Assembly: GCA_023484515.1 (NCBI GenBank)
Contig: JAMDAY010000011.1
Span: 1-44,570 of the forward strand
Reading direction: 5' to 3'
Length of the DNA: 44,570 nucleotides
Origin: Patescibacteria group bacterium
Lineage (GTDB): Bacteria > Patescibacteriota > Doudnabacteria > UBA920
Made by a program: the position numbers and the translations under genes. Positions 3,783 through 16,762 of the stretch are shown here, in pieces. The notes beneath the pieces were generated by a model. It ran no database searches and was not told the origin of the DNA. It saw only the letters and a program-made list of their open reading frames with translations. Within the stretch, counting starts at the first letter, position 1; each line of letters begins with the position of its first letter.

Positions 3783-4277
3783 ATGACAAAAGCAGTATTA
3801 TATGCCCGTTGCGCCTCGGAAAAAGTGGCGCACAGCAATGACAGCATCGAGGGCCAACTAAAAGCCCTGCGACGCTATGCAAAGAAAAATAAATATCAAA
3901 TCGTAAGAGAGTATGTGGATGTCGGATTAAGCGGGAACAACTTAATTCGCCCGGCATTTGCTCAACTAAGGAAAGATTTATGGAAGGGTGAATTCAAAGT
4001 GTTATTGGTTAATGACTTAAACCGACTGTCTCGCAATGTGGTGGACTGGCTGGCGCTGGAAAGTTTATTTCAGGAACACGGTATACAAGTTGTTTGCGTA
4101 AATGGGCCACAACTTAATCAGTCTCCAGCAGGCAGTTTTGCCAAGATGCTACTCGTGGCCGCAAGTCAGTTTGAAAGAGAGTCTCTTGCCGAAAGAGTAA
4201 GGCAGGGCTTAAAAGGTCGAAAAGCAAAAAGACCCGTTCGCTTGCAGGCAGTGGGGTCTTTGTGCGGAAACAATTAA
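3783..4277 (+). CDS. Short serine recombinase (catalytic domain only), altered active site
   Basis: A 164-residue protein with SD AAGGAG just upstream. It matches the resolvase/invertase catalytic domain: VLYARCASEK at 5-14, DSIEGQ near 20-25, and NDLNRLSRN corresponding to the DRLxR arginine motif. It ends after the domain's long helix and has no DNA-binding or zinc-ribbon part. At the position of the nucleophilic serine (ARV-S in the neighbour at 4562, residue 11) this protein has Ala11, with Ser12 next to it. It may be catalytically dead, use the neighbouring serine, or act as a directionality or regulatory partner of the large recombinase. The domain call is secure; the role is inference. 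Confidence 0.8.
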   Translation: MTKAVLYARCASEKVAHSNDSIEGQLKALRRYAKKNKYQIVREYVDVGLSGNNLIRPAFAQLRKDLWKGEFKVLLVNDLNRLSRNVVDWLALESLFQEHGIQVVCVNGPQLNQSPAGSFAKMLLVAASQFERESLAERVRQGLKGRKAKRPVRLQAVGSLCGNN

Positions 4278-4285
4278 GCATTAAG

Positions 4286-4324
4286 CCTAACCGTTTGACT
4301 GTATTATACAGTCAAAGCGTTAGG
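4286..4324. promoter_or_regulatory. 39-bp near-perfect palindrome between the two recombinase genes
   Basis: CCTAAC (4286-4291) pairs with GTTAGG (4319-4324), and TTTGACTGTAT (4294-4304) pairs with ATACAGTCAAA (4306-4316) around a single central base. Only a CG/GC pair of mismatched dinucleotides breaks the symmetry. There is no T-run. It could be an operator, a recombinase binding site or a translational control hairpin; it ends at the first base of a possible GTG start (4324). Confidence 0.5.
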
Positions 4325-4344
4325 TGTCAAAGGGTGGACGGCTT

Positions 4345-4614
4345 ATGGTCAGCCAATCACTTCTACAAGAACTTAAAGCCATTCTGGAAAAGAAACACGG
4401 TCGGACGTTTACCAGCCAAGAACTGGAAGACTATGCCAAGCGCTGGACCGAGTATTTCGAACTGGCCCGCAGAGTTAGTTTGGCTAAGCCCATCAAGCTA
4501 TCTGCTCCTGTGATGGTATATTTCAAAAAAATTGCCAGCATAGACGAATTAAAGGAGCTGTATGGAAAAAGCAGTAATACTTGCCAGAGTATCGAGCAAG
4601 GAACAGGCCGATGA
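4345..4614 (+). CDS. Small hypothetical protein overlapping the large recombinase
   Basis: An 89-residue protein (MVSQSLLQELKAILEKKHGR...) with no family I can name. It is predicted mostly helical and soluble; its hallmark is RTFTSQELEDYAKRWTEYFE. It overlaps the start of the large recombinase by 53 nt in a different frame, so the two are probably translationally coupled. A GTG at 4324 in the same frame would add seven residues but lies at the edge of the palindrome. Position and size suggest an accessory protein of the recombination module. Confidence 0.5.
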   Translation: MVSQSLLQELKAILEKKHGRTFTSQELEDYAKRWTEYFELARRVSLAKPIKLSAPVMVYFKKIASIDELKELYGKSSNTCQSIEQGTGR

Positions 4615-6199
4615 AGGTTACTCTTTACCGGCCCAAATAAAATTGTTGAAGGATTACGCCAAGGGCAGGTTTGAAGTCCAAGAACCCGACGTATTTGAGA
4701 TAAAGGAATCGGCTAGCGGTAAAATGGTGCGCATAACTTTCAACAATATGTTGAAGCACATAAAAGACCACAAAATCAAAATCATTTTGTGTGAAAAAAT
4801 AGACAGGCTGACACGCAATCCCAAAGATGCGTTAATGATGTATGACTGGTTGCAGGAAGACGAGAGCCGGGAGATTCACTTTGTGAAAGAATCGTTCATC
4901 GTCAACAAGAACACCAAGGCGCACGAAAATTTGGTGTGGGATATGAAGGTTGCTATTGCGCGTTTCTATTCTAACAACCTGTCGGAAGAAGTTAAGAAGG
5001 GACGGAAGGAAAAGCTGGCCCAGGGCTGGCTTCCTGCTATGCCGAAACTTGGTTATAAGACCGTGGGCGAGAAAGGCCACAGGATACACGTACCCGAAGA
5101 AACGGAAGCCAAGCACGTGCGGAAGATGTTTGATTTGTATGCGACTGGCAACTATCCGCTCAAGCGGCTGATGTATGTAATGTACGAAGCCGGGTTTCGT
5201 ACTAAGAACGGATACAAGGTGTCTATGGGCAATTTGCAAAGGTTATTAACTGACCCGTTCTACTACGGCGTAATTCGCTGGGAAGGGAAAATTTATCCGG
5301 GCAAGCACGAACCGCTCATCTCCAAGGAAACGTTCGACAAGGTACAGGCCATCTTAAAAGGTAAAGCGACCCCTAAGCTGTCCCGGCATTACTACCTGTT
5401 CAAAGGCCACTTCCATTGTTCCAACTGCGGGGGCTTGATTACGTGGGAAAAGCACAAGGGCAAGGTGTACGGCCACTGCAATTACCGGTATTACAAGAAC
5501 TGCGAAAAGAAGAAGTGGGTGGACGAAAAAGACGTGGAGAATGAGCTTTTGGGCTATTTTGACCGCCTGGAAGTCAAAGACAAAGACGTGGCCGATTGGC
5601 TACTAAAAACCTTAAGGGAAAGCCACGGAGAGGAAATAGCTTATTTTGAAACCACCTTAGGACAGCTTAATACCGAGCTTGCCCGCTATCAGCGGATGCT
5701 GGACCGGCTGTATGAAGACAAGTTGTCGGAAGAAATAAGTAAGGAGCAGTACGACGCCAAGTTTAAGGAGATATCTGCCAAGAAAGAAAAGATTGCCGAA
5801 GCCATAGCCAAGCACTCCAAGCAAGGCAGTGAGTATTTTGAATTGGCTAATAGTGTTTACGAACTGGGTCAGAAAGGTCGACTGATTTACGAATCAGCAG
5901 ACCCGGAACAAAAACGCGAGCTTATGAAGCTCGTGTTCGGAAAATTAGAATTGAATGGCGAAGAAGTGAAAGCGGAATACTCCAAACCGTTTGAACATCT
6001 GGCCACCGCAGTTAAAACCACCAATCGTTTTGACTTAAGTTCTGAAATTAAAGTTGAGGGTAAAATTATACACATTTTTTCAGAACTCAAGCTTTCGCTC
6101 TCAAATAAACGAGAAACCCTCGCTTTTGGCGAGGGTCTTCCCATATGGCTCGGGAGGTGGGATTCGAACCCACGACCCATCGGTTACACCTACCCTTAA
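4562..6199 (+). CDS. Large serine recombinase with zinc ribbon
   Basis: A 545-residue integrase-type serine recombinase that moves DNA between attachment sites. The catalytic domain carries LARVSS with nucleophile Ser11 and KIDRLTR at 79-85. The recombinase domain spans about 160-275 (GWLPAMPKLGYK, DPFYYGVIRWEGK). A zinc ribbon has C286/C289 and C306/C314, and a coiled coil lies at about 360-420. SD AAAGGAG is just upstream. The last ~17 codons (WDSNPRP...) are the antisense strand of the tRNA-Asn 3' half, and the ~10 codons before that read through the tRNA terminator. The natural frame therefore continues into host DNA, which suggests the element is integrated at the 3' end of the tRNA gene. 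The original C terminus may be shorter. Confidence 0.93.
   Translation: MEKAVILARVSSKEQADEGYSLPAQIKLLKDYAKGRFEVQEPDVFEIKESASGKMVRITFNNMLKHIKDHKIKIILCEKIDRLTRNPKDALMMYDWLQEDESREIHFVKESFIVNKNTKAHENLVWDMKVAIARFYSNNLSEEVKKGRKEKLAQGWLPAMPKLGYKTVGEKGHRIHVPEETEAKHVRKMFDLYATGNYPLKRLMYVMYEAGFRTKNGYKVSMGNLQRLLTDPFYYGVIRWEGKIYPGKHEPLISKETFDKVQAILKGKATPKLSRHYYLFKGHFHCSNCGGLITWEKHKGKVYGHCNYRYYKNCEKKKWVDEKDVENELLGYFDRLEVKDKDVADWLLKTLRESHGEEIAYFETTLGQLNTELARYQRMLDRLYEDKLSEEISKEQYDAKFKEISAKKEKIAEAIAKHSKQGSEYFELANSVYELGQKGRLIYESADPEQKRELMKLVFGKLELNGEEVKAEYSKPFEHLATAVKTTNRFDLSSEIKVEGKIIHIFSELKLSLSNKRETLAFGEGLPIWLGRWDSNPRPIGYTYP
6117..6135 (-). terminator. Terminator of the tRNA-Asn transcript
   Basis: A perfect 7-bp stem (CCCTCGC 6117-6123, GCGAGGG 6129-6135) is followed on the minus strand by TTTCTCGTTT. 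It lies 10 nt beyond the tRNA 3' CCA, where a terminator would be expected, and inside the antisense recombinase frame. Confidence 0.75.
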
Positions 6200-6719
6200 A
6201 TTTCTTTAAGGAGTGGACTATATCATCATCCCAAAAGGGATGCGAGGCGCTTCGGTTGATCTTCATCAACCTACTCTCTTGCGAGATAGTCTCTGAACCT
6301 TCCCCAAAAATTGGGGCTTGGCTGCTGATTACCATTTTACAGGCTTCCAGCAATTCACCTCGTTTTTCCATTCTCAATTACTTGAGAAGGCTGCAATAGA
6401 CCGGCATGAATTTCCTTATGGCAGTTGGAGCAAACTAGGATGCATTTATCCAACTCTTTTTGGGTACGTTCCCATGATCGAGTTAGGCCATTTGATCCTA
6501 GCCCAAAGTCCTTCCCTTGAGAATCAAGGTGATGGAACTCCAAAGCTCCGGCGCAGCGATCATAACCACAGAATATGCATTTGCCGCCTTTATAGGCGAT
6601 TGCCATGGCCTTGATCTTTTTGCGCCTTTTATCCACTGCCATTTTAAGGTACTCTGCCCGGTCGGAATATTTCCTATTATCTGGCATACGATTTACGTTA
6701 GCCAATAATGGAGGTGTTC
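6187..6719 (-). mobile_element. Group I intron in the tRNA-Asn anticodon, with HNH ORF
   Basis: A 533-nt insertion. The 5' exon ends in U (6720) and the intron ends in G (6187), as group I introns require. Core elements on the minus strand appear in the right order: AATTGCTGGAA (6355-6345, P3/P4), AATCAGCAGCCAAGC (6330-6316, P6/P3 side), TTCAGAGACTA (about 6297-6287, P7) and ATATAGTCC (6223-6215, P7 complement). The HNH endonuclease frame occupies the 5' half, upstream of the core, and its stop codon touches P4. I could not confidently identify the internal guide sequence. Self-splicing is inferred from the core motifs. Confidence 0.9.
6355..6687 (-). CDS. Intron-encoded HNH homing endonuclease
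   Basis: A 110-residue HNH nuclease. Zinc/HNH residues are C37xxC40 (KCIFCGYD), H52H53 (EFHHLD), then C86xxC89H90 and H94 (LVCSNCHKEIH). Such enzymes cut intron-less alleles to drive intron homing; the likely target is the tRNA-Asn anticodon arm. I use ATG 6687. A TTG at 6705 in the same frame would add six residues, and neither has an SD. The gene lies wholly inside the group I intron on the same strand, and its stop codon overlaps the start of the catalytic core (AATTGCTGG). Confidence 0.88.
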   Translation of the reverse strand: MPDNRKYSDRAEYLKMAVDKRRKKIKAMAIAYKGGKCIFCGYDRCAGALEFHHLDSQGKDFGLGSNGLTRSWERTQKELDKCILVCSNCHKEIHAGLLQPSQVIENGKTR

Positions 6720-11746: not shown

Positions 11747-11840
11747 TATTTTTTTTCCAGTAAGCGGTTAAAAGCGGAGGCGTCGTTGTATAGTGAAAAT
11801 AGTTATCTATTTTCCATCGTTACATTTAAAGGCCGCACAT

Positions 11841-12368
11841 ATGAAAAAATCCATTATTATTCCAATAATAATCCTGGTGGCTGCGGGAGCGATATTAATT
11901 TACGTGATCCCCCGGAATAAGTCTTCCAATAATTCCGCCGGCACCTCCGGGAACAATACGCAAAATTTACCTTCAAGCAGTTTAAACCAGCCAGGTATGT
12001 TTGGGAGCGGTTCAAACATGCAAAGCGATTCCGGCCAGGGCGGGATAGTCATTAAATCCCTGGATATGCCGCAGGCAGGGTTTGCGGTAATCCAGCAGGA
12101 CAATAACGGCCAGCCCGGGAACGTTTTGGGTTCCAGCCAGCTATTGCAGACCGGTACGAATTCCATGGTCCAGGTGCCCACCAGCGTTCCACTGACGCCG
12201 GGGATGAGTTATTTCGTGTCCATTTATGACAACAGCGCCAACCAAAGCACTTTTGTCCAGGATGCGGACAAGATAATTTCTGACCAAAAAGGGGTTGCTT
12301 TAACCCAGCAGTTTACCGCGCCCCAGCAACCCCAACCGTCCAGCGCCATGCCGCCGACAGGGCAATAA
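11841..12368 (+). CDS. Membrane-anchored secreted protein (DUF7282-like)
   Basis: A 175-residue protein. It starts MKKSIIIPIIILVAAGAILI, a signal-anchor, followed by a Ser/Asn/Gly-rich linker (about 25-75). A beta-rich domain comes next (AGFAVIQQDNNGQPGNVLGS, then VQVPTSVPLTPGMSYFVSIY), resembling the extracellular DUF7282 fold in which a charge or bond statement is made about polymer surfaces; the function is unknown. The end is Gln/Pro-rich. I use the ATG at 11841 because the signal-anchor begins there; the longer frame from 11793 would bury it. The protein is predicted to face outside the cytoplasm. Confidence 0.65.
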   Translation: MKKSIIIPIIILVAAGAILIYVIPRNKSSNNSAGTSGNNTQNLPSSSLNQPGMFGSGSNMQSDSGQGGIVIKSLDMPQAGFAVIQQDNNGQPGNVLGSSQLLQTGTNSMVQVPTSVPLTPGMSYFVSIYDNSANQSTFVQDADKIISDQKGVALTQQFTAPQQPQPSSAMPPTGQ

Positions 12369-12620: not shown

Positions 12621-13955
12621 ATGAACAAAACCTTTTTAAAAAACCAAATTTTTAAGATTAAAAATTATTTCCAAAACAACACAAAATTATTCGCGGCGAT
12701 AGCGTTAATTTTAATACTTGCAGGGGCGGCGCAGATCCAGGAAGACAGGTTGTCTTTGTCCCAACCGGAGCCCCAATCCTCCGGCCAGGCCTCTTCTTCA
12801 ATAACGCTGGCCAGCCAAAATAACGTGGATGTGGCAAAGCTGTCCCAAATTGGCGATTACAGCGGCCTGCCCGTAAGCAAGGTTGATTACTTTCCCGTTG
12901 ACAACGCCCAGGGAACTGCAATTTTATTGCCCCAGTTCCATCGCGATCCCACCACGACCAGTACCCAGGATCCCCTGAACGACAATGCGCAGGCCAACCA
13001 GGAACAAACCTTGCCTATTTTGCGCGCGCTTGACCAGAACGGGGTAAGCTTGATTATGGTGGAAGGGGACTTGGCCGGTCCGGTGCCGCAGGATAAAATT
13101 GATTCCCTAAAAACGGAAATCGCAGCCCGCGACAAGTTTGAAACGGACTGGAAGAATTTTAAAGGGCAGCTGCAAGGCAGCAGCCTTAATCCATCGGTTG
13201 TCAGTTCTCTGCAAGCCAGCATGGACCAGCAGGCATCTGCCGTGGACAGGGACATAATTGTCAAGTACGGGGCGCCATACGTACTTAAGGCAGAAGGATC
13301 CGATTCCATTCTGGTAGGCGCGGAAGACCAGGCAACCTTGGACAAATGTACGGACATAATTAGAAATTACGTCTATTTGCAAGACCGCCTAAACCAAGTC
13401 CAGCAAGGCCAGCAGCCGGCTTCCATGCCTTCCGCTTCCATTGGCGCAGCCAATCCTAACATACAAAGCCTCATTCAGCAGCTTATGGGTTCTACCAATA
13501 CGCCTGCCGCCCAGCTTGCCGCATTGCAATACCAAGTGAACCAGAAAGGTGATACTTCATTATCCCAATCCTTGCAGGGTTTGGAACAAGATTTGTCAAA
13601 TGTGCAAAATAGCATGCAGGCCGCTACCGCAGCTGCGGTTTCTTCCAGTGCCGGTTCTTCTACCGCGCCTTCGCGCGCGAATAATCCTTACAGCAATATT
13701 AGCGATCCGGCCGTCTTGCAAAATATGCTGAACCAGTCCCAGCAGGACATTAACCAGTGGGTTATTGGGGAACGGAACAAAGAAGCCGCGCAGAATTTTG
13801 CGCAAGCGTTAAAAACTTACGGCAAGTCCGTGGGCGCCATTCAATTCGGCGCAGGCCACGAAGACGGCCTGGTAAGCGAATTGAACAAACAAAATTTGAA
13901 CGTAATCGTGATTACAACCAATGAAGTTGCTTCCCAGCCAAACCCGGTAGTATAA
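12621..13955 (+). CDS. Membrane-anchored TraB/Tiki-like protein
   Basis: A 444-residue protein. One N-terminal membrane span lies at about 22-38. A Tiki/TraB-EreA-like fold is suggested by ILLPQFHRD (His107), a helix, then SLIMVEGD (Glu148). At the end, GERNKEAAQNFAQALKTYGK (384-402) is followed by IQFGAGHEDGLVSEL, with His413 in GAGH. The R(N/D)xxxA helix, the GAGHxxG loop and the final strand VIVIT are the C-terminal hallmarks of TraB/PrgY/GumN proteins. A Gln/Ser/Ala-rich insertion (about 255-380) separates the halves. Family members are proposed metal-dependent hydrolases. The active site faces outward if the anchor is a signal-anchor. The family call is by motif only. Confidence 0.6.
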   Translation: MNKTFLKNQIFKIKNYFQNNTKLFAAIALILILAGAAQIQEDRLSLSQPEPQSSGQASSSITLASQNNVDVAKLSQIGDYSGLPVSKVDYFPVDNAQGTAILLPQFHRDPTTTSTQDPLNDNAQANQEQTLPILRALDQNGVSLIMVEGDLAGPVPQDKIDSLKTEIAARDKFETDWKNFKGQLQGSSLNPSVVSSLQASMDQQASAVDRDIIVKYGAPYVLKAEGSDSILVGAEDQATLDKCTDIIRNYVYLQDRLNQVQQGQQPASMPSASIGAANPNIQSLIQQLMGSTNTPAAQLAALQYQVNQKGDTSLSQSLQGLEQDLSNVQNSMQAATAAAVSSSAGSSTAPSRANNPYSNISDPAVLQNMLNQSQQDINQWVIGERNKEAAQNFAQALKTYGKSVGAIQFGAGHEDGLVSELNKQNLNVIVITTNEVASQPNPVV

Positions 13956-14066: not shown

Positions 14067-14744
14067 TTAGTACCAGGTATTGTAATTCAGGCCGTTGCCG
14101 ATATAGCCGGAATAAGGATAATAGCCGTTATTATATAATCCGCTGCCGTATCCGCCATACAACCCGCTCCCGTACCCTCCTCCGTACAGTCCGGAACCGT
14201 AACCGCTGCCATAAACCAAGCTGTTGCCGAAATACTGGTTTCCCGTCCCTCCGCCATATAATCCAGTCGCATACCCTAATCCCGTGCCGTAACCTCCATA
14301 GCCTCCATATAAGCCATTGCCGTAACCATATCCTAATCCAGTGCCATATCCTCCATAACCCCCGTATAGGCCGCCGAACAAGCCTGTGCCATATCCTCCC
14401 AAGTAACCGTTGGATAACCCGCCGTAATAGGGAGTGTAATACGTGCTGTCTGCGCCATACGGGCTATAATAACTGTTATACGCGCCCAAATCGTCTCGGT
14501 CGCCGTCAAACCACCAGGCGTAAGGAGGACTGCCGCCTACATTGTTTTGGGCCCCTCCAAAAAATCCGTTTAAGTAACCGTTGTCGTCATAGTCGCCGTC
14601 CAAATACGGCCCGCTGGCTTCGTAATTCCCAACCCCTCCGCCTAGATATTGCGCCTGGACCGAAGTTATTTTTAATCCAAAAACCAAGGCCACAATCAGC
14701 GCAGTGGCAAATATATAGGGCACCTTGTTAATTTTGTCAGACAT
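14067..14744 (-). CDS. Secreted Gly/Tyr-rich low-complexity protein
   Basis: A 225-residue protein. A signal peptide (about 1-31, ending SVQA before QYLGGG) is followed by a region extremely rich in Gly, Tyr, Leu and Asn, with repeated units such as GYGTGLGY, GLYGGYGGYGTGL and GYGSGLYGG. There is no Cys and few charges. An Asp-rich stretch (YLDGDYDDNGYLNG) lies at about 47-60. ATG 14744 is chosen because AAGGAGGTG sits directly before it; the in-frame GTG at 14753 lies inside that SD. Such composition is seen in structural or adhesive extracellular proteins. A cell-surface or matrix role is inferred, supported by the neighbouring secreted SQW-repeat genes on the same strand. Confidence 0.82.
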   Translation of the reverse strand: MSDKINKVPYIFATALIVALVFGLKITSVQAQYLGGGVGNYEASGPYLDGDYDDNGYLNGFFGGAQNNVGGSPPYAWWFDGDRDDLGAYNSYYSPYGADSTYYTPYYGGLSNGYLGGYGTGLFGGLYGGYGGYGTGLGYGYGNGLYGGYGGYGTGLGYATGLYGGGTGNQYFGNSLVYGSGYGSGLYGGGYGSGLYGGYGSGLYNNGYYPYSGYIGNGLNYNTWY

Positions 14745-14798
14745 TATTTTCACCTCCTTGATTGCATAGTGCCGTAGGTTATTTATTAAATATTCTTA

Positions 14799-14887
14799 TA
14801 GCCTGCGGCTAAACATCAAAAATTATTTTGACCAACCTGCTCGGAATTCTGAAATTTCGTCTTAAAAGCGCGTTCGGCAACAGACCC
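14799..14887. repeat. Truncated copy of a terminal-inverted-repeat element
   Basis: About 90 bp that closely match 37338-37427 (AGCC-TNC-GGCTAAACATCAAAA, then GTCTTAAAAGCGC and TTCGGCAACAGACCC). Only the right end is present here; the full element with both terminal inverted repeats is at 37266-37427. It ends 3 bp from the stop codon of the gene at 14890. Confidence 0.75.
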
Positions 14888-14889
14888 AT

Positions 14890-15651
14890 TTAACTGCCGC
14901 CCTGCGGGGAGCTGAACAATCCTTGCAAAATTACCCATTGGCTTACCGGATCCAAAGAATTAAAACCGTTCGGACCGTTGCCAAACAATCCTTGCAACGC
15001 AATCCATTGGCTTATTGCCTGCGCCCGGGTCGGCGGGCCTTGGTTTGCGAATAATCCGTATAGCACAATCCATTTGCTTACTTCATCTAAGTTGTAAAAA
15101 TTACTTGCCCCGTTGCTGAACAATCCTTGTAACGCAATCCATTGGCTTATTATTTGCGCCTGGAAAGGGGAATTTGCCTGTCCGAATAATTGCTGCAGGA
15201 CAATCCATTTACTGACAGGACCCAGATAATTAAAGGGGATGGCTTGAGGCTGCTGGTAAGGGGCAATTTGTTGGAAGGGGACTGGCGGATAAGTTTGGAC
15301 TGGCTTGTTTGCTTGGTTTAGCTGGTTTTGAGGAAAATAAATTATGGCAGCTAGCCACAGCATCGTTAAAACCGCTATTAAGGGAACAGGCGCGGCGGAA
15401 AAGCGAAGCGCATTTTTTCTGCCTGGTTTTTTCCACGCGCTGTCTACCATTTTTAGCTTGCTTTCGGAAATAGTTTTTGGGAGAAAAATAGCAGGCAGTA
15501 CGGGGAAAGAAAAATGGCTATAATTAATTACCTTGCCCATATTGTCCGGTGGGTCAAATTTTGAGAGTATGTCGGATGGTTTTTCTTTAAAGAATTCAGG
15601 GTTTGCGGTATTGGATCCATAGTGTTTTACGTTAACTTGGGTTTTTTTCAT
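14890..15651 (-). CDS. Membrane-anchored protein with five SQW repeats
   Basis: A 253-residue protein. The N-terminal ~85 residues are charged and presumably cytoplasmic; one membrane span is at about 88-105 (PVPLIAVLTMLWLAAIIYF). A Pro/Gln-rich linker follows, then five copies of an 11-residue motif at 146, 168, 191, 213 and 236, spaced 22-23 residues: VSKWIVLQQLF, ISQWIALQGLF, VSKWIVLYGLF, ISQWIALQGLF, VSQWVILQGLF. The copies alternate between two subtypes, suggesting a two-motif unit of 45 residues. The motif is shared with the secreted proteins at 15720 and 16343, so this may be their membrane-bound partner or anchor. I recognise no known family. The start follows AAAGGCGGG. Confidence 0.8.
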   Translation of the reverse strand: MKKTQVNVKHYGSNTANPEFFKEKPSDILSKFDPPDNMGKVINYSHFSFPVLPAIFLPKTISESKLKMVDSAWKKPGRKNALRFSAAPVPLIAVLTMLWLAAIIYFPQNQLNQANKPVQTYPPVPFQQIAPYQQPQAIPFNYLGPVSKWIVLQQLFGQANSPFQAQIISQWIALQGLFSNGASNFYNLDEVSKWIVLYGLFANQGPPTRAQAISQWIALQGLFGNGPNGFNSLDPVSQWVILQGLFSSPQGGS

Positions 15652-15680
15652 AAACCCGCCTTTCGTTATTTATACGGTTG

Positions 15681-15710
15681 AATAAAGGGGCAATCACTTG
15701 CCCCTTTATT
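15681..15710 (-). terminator. Terminator hairpin
   Basis: A 13-bp perfect stem (AATAAAGGGGCAA and its complement) with a 4-nt loop, 15681-15710. It lies 10 bp after the stop of the small SQW-repeat gene on the minus strand, so that gene is monocistronic. Confidence 0.75.
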
Positions 15711-15719
15711 CTGTTTTCA

Positions 15720-16019
15720 CTAGTAACCTATCGTTCCATACGGGTTAAACAAGCCCGACAGGACAATCCACTGGCTGATGGGGTTGTTATAGACTCCGTA
15801 GGCTCCGCCAGTTGTTCCTCCAGCTGTTCCCGTTCCACCGACAGTGCCAAAGGTGCCATACGGGTTAAACAAGCCCGACAGGACAATCCACTGGCTAATG
15901 GGGTTGTTGTAAGCCCCGCCCAGGGCTTGGGCGTGCGCCTGGCTGGTTACGGCAAAGCCTCCAACCGCCATTACTGCCGCTAAAGCTAACCCTGCCAATG
16001 CTTTCTTGATGTTCTTCAT
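15720..16019 (-). CDS. Small secreted protein with two SQW repeats
   Basis: A 99-residue protein. A clear signal peptide ends AHA at residue 30 (ALAGLALAAVMAVGGFAVTS, then QAHA), leaving a mature protein of about 70 residues. It is made of two copies of YNNPISQWIVLSGLFNPYGT at 37-56 and 77-96, separated by a Gly/Thr-rich spacer. The DNA of the two repeats is nearly identical, so the duplication is recent or maintained by conversion. The SD GGGAGGTG followed by AAAAA is the same as in the paralogue at 16343, suggesting matched strong expression. It has no enzyme motif; a structural or membrane-active role is inference. Confidence 0.85.
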   Translation of the reverse strand: MKNIKKALAGLALAAVMAVGGFAVTSQAHAQALGGAYNNPISQWIVLSGLFNPYGTFGTVGGTGTAGGTTGGAYGVYNNPISQWIVLSGLFNPYGTIGY

Positions 16020-16342
16020 TGTTTTTCACCTCCCTAGCTTGTTAAAGATTAAGCTTGATCCTGCAAAAGCGGTATTTCGTTTGCCGGCAAGCTTTGTTAC
16101 TGCAGTTTTATAGCTGCATCGGCCAAGCCTGGAAACAGATTATGGGCAGAAGGGTCACCATATGCCGCCTATTTTCTGTATGCCCAGCCTGGGCCGTAAG
16201 AGAAATGGCTTGCTCCATACTATTGATCTTTGCAAGATAAGCCGAGAGAATTATGCCCGGTTGATGGGAAAAATTGTTCAACCTAAATATGTCGTGCTCA
16301 ATAGTTGGAGGAATTCGCCAAAACCTCTCCTATATAAAATGC

Positions 16343-16762
16343 TTAGGGATCAACCGCCGTAGTCGCTGTAGTCTGAGCTGCGCCAAAGGTACCTAATGGA
16401 TTAAACAAGCCGGACAAGACTATCCATTGGCTTACCGGGTTATACATAGCGCCGCCATAACCGTAGCCGCCCGCTCCCGCCGCGCCGCCCGCCCCTACCG
16501 CGCCTCCCATGGGATAACCGAAAGCTATGGGATTAAACAAGCCGGACAAGACTATCCATTGGCTAATGGGGTTGTTGTAAGCCCCGCCGAGAGTGCCTTG
16601 GTTTTGGACGGTTTCAGCCGCCTCCTGTTCAGCCGCCTGCGTGGTGGCAGATTCCGTGGTTTGGGCTTTTGCCGGACTGAATACGCCAAAACTGGCCAAG
16701 GCCAACAGCGCCAATACTGACAACCCGGAAACTATTTTTTTCAGGCTTTTCATTTTTTTCAC
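16343..16762 (-). CDS. Secreted protein with two SQW repeats (paralogue)
   Basis: A 139-residue protein. The signal peptide (1-33) ends SPAKA before QTTESAT. A Gln/Glu/Ala-rich segment follows (34-57), then YNNPISQWIVLSGLFNP at 62-78, a Gly/Ala/Tyr-rich spacer (83-105), and YNPVSQWIVLSGLFNP at 107-122. The 45-residue spacing equals two 22-23-residue units of the anchored protein at 14890. SD GGGAGGTGAAAAA lies directly upstream, the same as in the gene at 15720. The 320-bp gap to that gene shows no further ORF. It is a member of a repeat family I cannot assign to anything described. Confidence 0.85.
   Translation of the reverse strand: MKKMKSLKKIVSGLSVLALLALASFGVFSPAKAQTTESATTQAAEQEAAETVQNQGTLGGAYNNPISQWIVLSGLFNPIAFGYPMGGAVGAGGAAGAGGYGYGGAMYNPVSQWIVLSGLFNPLGTFGAAQTTATTAVDP

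Follow-up and report, generated by a model that had tools for sequence, protein, structure and literature searches.

A short repeat shared by predicted secreted and membrane-anchored proteins in a single patescibacterial genome

Three neighbouring genes on the minus strand of the stretch of DNA analysed here (44,570 nucleotides in its whole length; the window) encode proteins with a shared motif, and all three genes and their nine motif copies were found as the sequence-only reading of this DNA had described them. They belong to a family, here called SQW, of five genes with 12 motif copies at three loci of the same genome, the two other loci lying on contigs C3 and C14 (Table 1). A short hydrophobic tag, NPISQWIVLSGLFNP, is common to all five SQW proteins.

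Table 1. SQW genes and associated features (positions in the window unless a contig is named)
Feature	Location	Strand	Description
SQW protein 2	16343..16753	-	136 aa, signal peptide (...SPAKAQ), two copies, Ala/Gly-rich linker
SQW protein 1	15720..16019	-	99 aa, signal peptide (...SQAHAQ), two copies, strong Shine-Dalgarno (SD) site
Terminator-like inverted repeat	15680..15711		14 pairs, between SQW gene 1 and anchored gene
Anchored SQW protein 3	14890..15651	-	253 aa, basic N-terminal part, one transmembrane (TM) segment, five copies
Gly/Tyr-rich secreted protein	14067..14744	-	225 aa, ends NTWY-stop, strong SD site
C3 SQW gene	contig C3		92 aa from likely ATG, two copies 31 residues apart
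C14 SQW gene	contig C14		81 aa, one motif copy

The start of SQW gene 2 is most likely the ATG at 16753 and not the GTG at 16762, because GGGAGGTG lies a few bases upstream of this ATG. In the anchored SQW protein 3, the TM segment (approximately residues 86–104) is followed by a Pro/Gln-rich stalk and then by the motif repeats, spaced 22/23/22/23, and the C-terminal end consists of repeat five plus SSPQGGS. In the DNA of this gene a 115-nt unit is repeated at 135 nt, a pattern that a duplicated two-motif unit would give. Basic residues precede the TM segment, and the repeats are therefore predicted to lie outside. The overall architecture agrees with the sequence-only reading, which had two signal-peptide proteins with two copies each and a membrane-anchored protein with five copies alternating between two subtypes. 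For the secreted proteins that reading gave spacings of 40 and 45 residues, of which the first holds for SQW protein 1 and the second was measured as 44 in SQW protein 2. Its proposal that these spacings are twice the 22–23-residue period failed at the C3 paralogue, with its spacing of 31, and at the single-copy C14 paralogue. Because spacing varies in this way, a fixed 45-residue register is disfavoured, and we regard a 22/45-residue register as not supported by the sequences.

The mature part of the Gly/Tyr-rich protein encoded beside the SQW genes is 34% G and 20% Y. The inverted repeat was scored on the plus strand in the scan, with a short T tail on the minus strand; this putative hairpin suggests that SQW gene 1 and the anchored gene may be separate transcription units. 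Just beyond the cluster lie plus-strand genes for a secreted TraB/GumN-like protein (12621–13955; E 4e-5, just under the Pfam cut-off) and, on the strand opposite to the SQW genes, a DUF7282 protein (11793–12368). Elsewhere in the window is a group I intron (6194–6419, minus strand; Rfam RF00028, 98.5 bits), which adjoins an apparent tRNA gene 3' half (GGTTCGAATCCCACCTCCCGAGCCA), and an HNH-like endonuclease reading frame lies just upstream of it (~6400–6700). ARAGORN reported no tRNA in the window. Two serine-recombinase-like genes (3783–6199, plus strand) end at the intron-split tRNA, and this arrangement resembles that of an element integrated at a tRNA locus.

The C3 SQW gene likewise adjoins a gene for a secreted Gly/Tyr-rich protein ending in NTWY, the counterpart of the window gene. 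A degenerate DNA pattern for NTWY-stop has just two occurrences genome-wide, in these two genes beside SQW genes, and two of the three SQW loci therefore carry an NTWY-ending gene. This linkage at two separate loci is new here. In this region (L054 5406–5969, 8690–10010, 10036–12920) the C3 pair is flanked by two ECF-type sigma factor genes, followed by genes for an FMN-binding-domain-like protein, an ApbE-like flavin transferase and an NqrB/ferredoxin-reductase-like protein, all named by reading the sequences and not by profile search. The C14 SQW gene adjoins a Gln/Asn-rich secreted protein gene (L055 8442–8960, minus strand) with an equally strong SD site.

The SQW repeat is real and selected, not a product of chance. 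The conserved segment, NP-[IV]S-Q-W-I-V-L-x-G-L-F-NP (15 residues), is found in the four secreted proteins, with five diverged copies in the TM-segment protein. Across the whole 1.3-Mb genome, a codon-degenerate pattern for QWIVLxxLF gave six matches versus none for a reversed control. A 24-position profile recovered the 12 copies at E values of 1e-11 to 1e-14, with the next best match at 0.33; as the profile was built from the same 12 copies, the informative figure is the distance to that next match. Pairwise between genes, the 15 motif codons differ by 3–9 synonymous codon changes versus 0–3 amino-acid changes (dS from 0.4 to saturated, and often saturated), and the pairs with two or three amino-acid changes all include the first C3 copy. 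The motif peptide is thus nearly invariant while its synonymous sites have diverged, and we conclude that it is under purifying selection.

We asked how far the family extends. The motif profile gave no convincing match in 21 other genomes of the same taxonomic family, in 48 others of the order (class and order being here the same 49 genomes) or in 379 others of the phylum, and a full-length alignment search found no relative in 380 relatives. A codon-degenerate scan for the strict core QWIVLxGLF in 84,980 GTDB species representatives, among which the genome itself is perhaps not included, returned 28 matches, where we estimate ~20 by chance. On reading, all of these looked like chance matches and were rejected, lying in multi-pass membrane proteins and short frames, with neither NP flanks nor a second copy; three of the genomes behind them, searched whole, gave no better match. 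The single match in viral contigs was also judged chance, and none was confirmed. The repeat had been called undescribed, and this stands: the SQW proteins have no relative in Pfam or NCBIfam, and a profile search of PDB sequences gave no match at E up to 10. Sub-threshold Pfam and NCBIfam hits (DUF2534, T2SSM, SbtA precursor and similar) mainly covered the signal peptide and were rejected. The N-terminal half of SQW protein 3 likewise had no relative, its weak matches (E 0.004–0.3) identifying no convincing homologous protein. The motif strings did not occur in the literature searched. The SQW family is therefore an orphan of this species or genus, confined to one genome among those searched; the set included no second genome of the same genus, and close relatives may exist outside the genomes sampled. 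The sequence-only reading had tied the standing of the repeat to recurrence in relatives with a conserved gene neighbourhood. The motif is absent from the other genomes searched, so no neighbourhood is conserved across genomes, but within this genome the NTWY linkage recurs at two loci.

Expression signals and composition also set these genes apart. Strong SD sites (GGGAGGTG, AAGGAGGTG, AAGGGGGT and similar) precede each of the four secreted SQW genes and the two Gly/Tyr-rich genes, bearing out the strong sites noted earlier at the two secreted window genes; the site of anchored SQW gene 3 is weaker. A site of any of these kinds stands ahead of an ATG in the first 40 codons in only two of 43 long open reading frames of the window and the two other regions. 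One of the two is the window Gly/Tyr-rich gene; leaving it out, the count is 1 of 42. The contrast is suggestive rather than formal, the SD cores having been picked after viewing the family sites. The mature secreted proteins carry almost no charge (no charged residue in SQW protein 1) and are Gly-rich, mostly also Tyr-rich. No Cys occurs in any member of the SQW or Gly/Tyr-rich families.

The genes, the selected motif, the signal-peptide-like and TM segments, the SD sites and the Gly/Tyr linkage together suggest export, self-association, tethering and a surface role. We propose, at about even confidence, that the SQW and Gly/Tyr-rich proteins form a self-associating extracellular surface matrix. 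Together, the five SQW genes and their two Gly/Tyr-rich partners would then supply a lineage-specific surface material of small, nearly uncharged, Cys-free proteins, produced abundantly and exported through the Sec pathway. The 15-residue segment would act as a sticker joining secreted proteins to each other, with the flexible Gly/Ala/Tyr-rich stretches as spacers, and SQW protein 3, showing five stickers outside, might tie the material to the producing cell or nucleate it there. Adjoining the SQW genes, no gene for a secretion or assembly helper was recognised.

Alternatively, the motif might be a docking tag through which the secreted proteins are held one-to-one by the anchored protein or by a different receptor at the surface, or through which secreted and anchored proteins alike attach to some third partner, for instance the cell wall or the surface of a host. 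Such a tag would tolerate the variable spacings and the single-copy protein better than a register-dependent fibre would. AlphaFold2 models (mean pLDDT 49.6 and 45.8) are weakly helical, with a short low-confidence helix at the motif, and are too weak to be relied on; they do not favour a cross-beta core, while by the Chou-Fasman scale the beta propensity of the motif exceeds its helix propensity. The tag bearers, however, have no other evident folded domain to display, their remainder being low-complexity linker, and we consider docking unlikely, although the most plausible of the alternatives. It is improbable that the motif is membrane-active, its short hydrophobic segments inserting into the bilayer of producer, host or competitor. 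The 11-mer has a mean hydrophobicity of 0.39–0.66 (Eisenberg scale) and contains Trp and Phe, as such a role would favour, but an 11-residue helix is too short to span a bilayer, and five copies on the producer's own membrane protein would endanger the producer. At 100 degrees the hydrophobic moment reaches only 0.03–0.20, which lends no support to the amphipathic helices of the sequence-only reading, and this low moment and the near absence of positive charge are unlike typical lytic peptides. A low-complexity family of recent origin that duplicates but has little function, its copies yet to decay, would fit a single genome among those searched and the nearly identical DNA of the within-gene copies of proteins 1 and 2, but is very improbable given the diverged, often saturated synonymous sites between genes, the retained peptide and the strong SD site at every secreted gene.

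The proposed surface matrix has partial precedents. Chaplins of Streptomyces comprise several short secreted hydrophobic proteins and longer surface-anchored proteins that share their domain and carry it more than once, and co-assembly of the two forms was proposed to tether the layer (PMC5618241). The SQW set, known from its genes, resembles them in combining short secreted subunits with a longer anchored multi-copy protein. However, the chaplin domain is much longer and has two Cys in all but ChpE, whereas the SQW and Gly/Tyr-rich proteins have none, and long chaplins are sortase-anchored, whereas SQW protein 3 has no sortase signal but a TM segment in its N-terminal part. No SQW protein matched the chaplin domain profile (PF03777), the search giving only weak sub-threshold hits, mostly over the signal peptide. 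Chaplins show that a subunit plus anchored multi-copy logic exists in bacteria; the SQW proteins are unrelated to them in sequence.

Curli follow a subunit plus nucleator logic with CsgA and CsgB, which resembles the scheme proposed here, and their ~22-residue tandem repeats recall the 22/23 spacing of SQW protein 3; this period is not kept in the secreted SQW proteins. The curlin repeat profile gave no SQW match in Pfam or NCBIfam, and no csg-type secretion genes were recognised near the SQW genes. A tick cement glycine-rich protein, a disordered Gly-rich chain with interspersed aromatics, depends on Arg-aromatic contacts (PMC11794139). Its Gly and aromatic make-up is like that of the SQW and Gly/Tyr-rich proteins and makes sticker-and-spacer behaviour plausible, but the tick protein is eukaryotic and shows no homology, and the SQW proteins, almost without charge, are unlike it in its dependence on Arg.

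More tentatively, with somewhat less than even confidence, the set may be an independently evolved and previously undescribed self-assembling surface polymer, in which secreted subunits, a Gly/Tyr-rich co-component and an anchored multi-copy nucleator would be joined by one 15-residue sticker. An orphan without relatives, the family is for now of limited wider reach. The means by which Patescibacteria attach to other cells are poorly known. If the SQW proteins do assemble, they would represent a compact surface material that relies on one short sticker and evolved in one lineage of small-genome bacteria.
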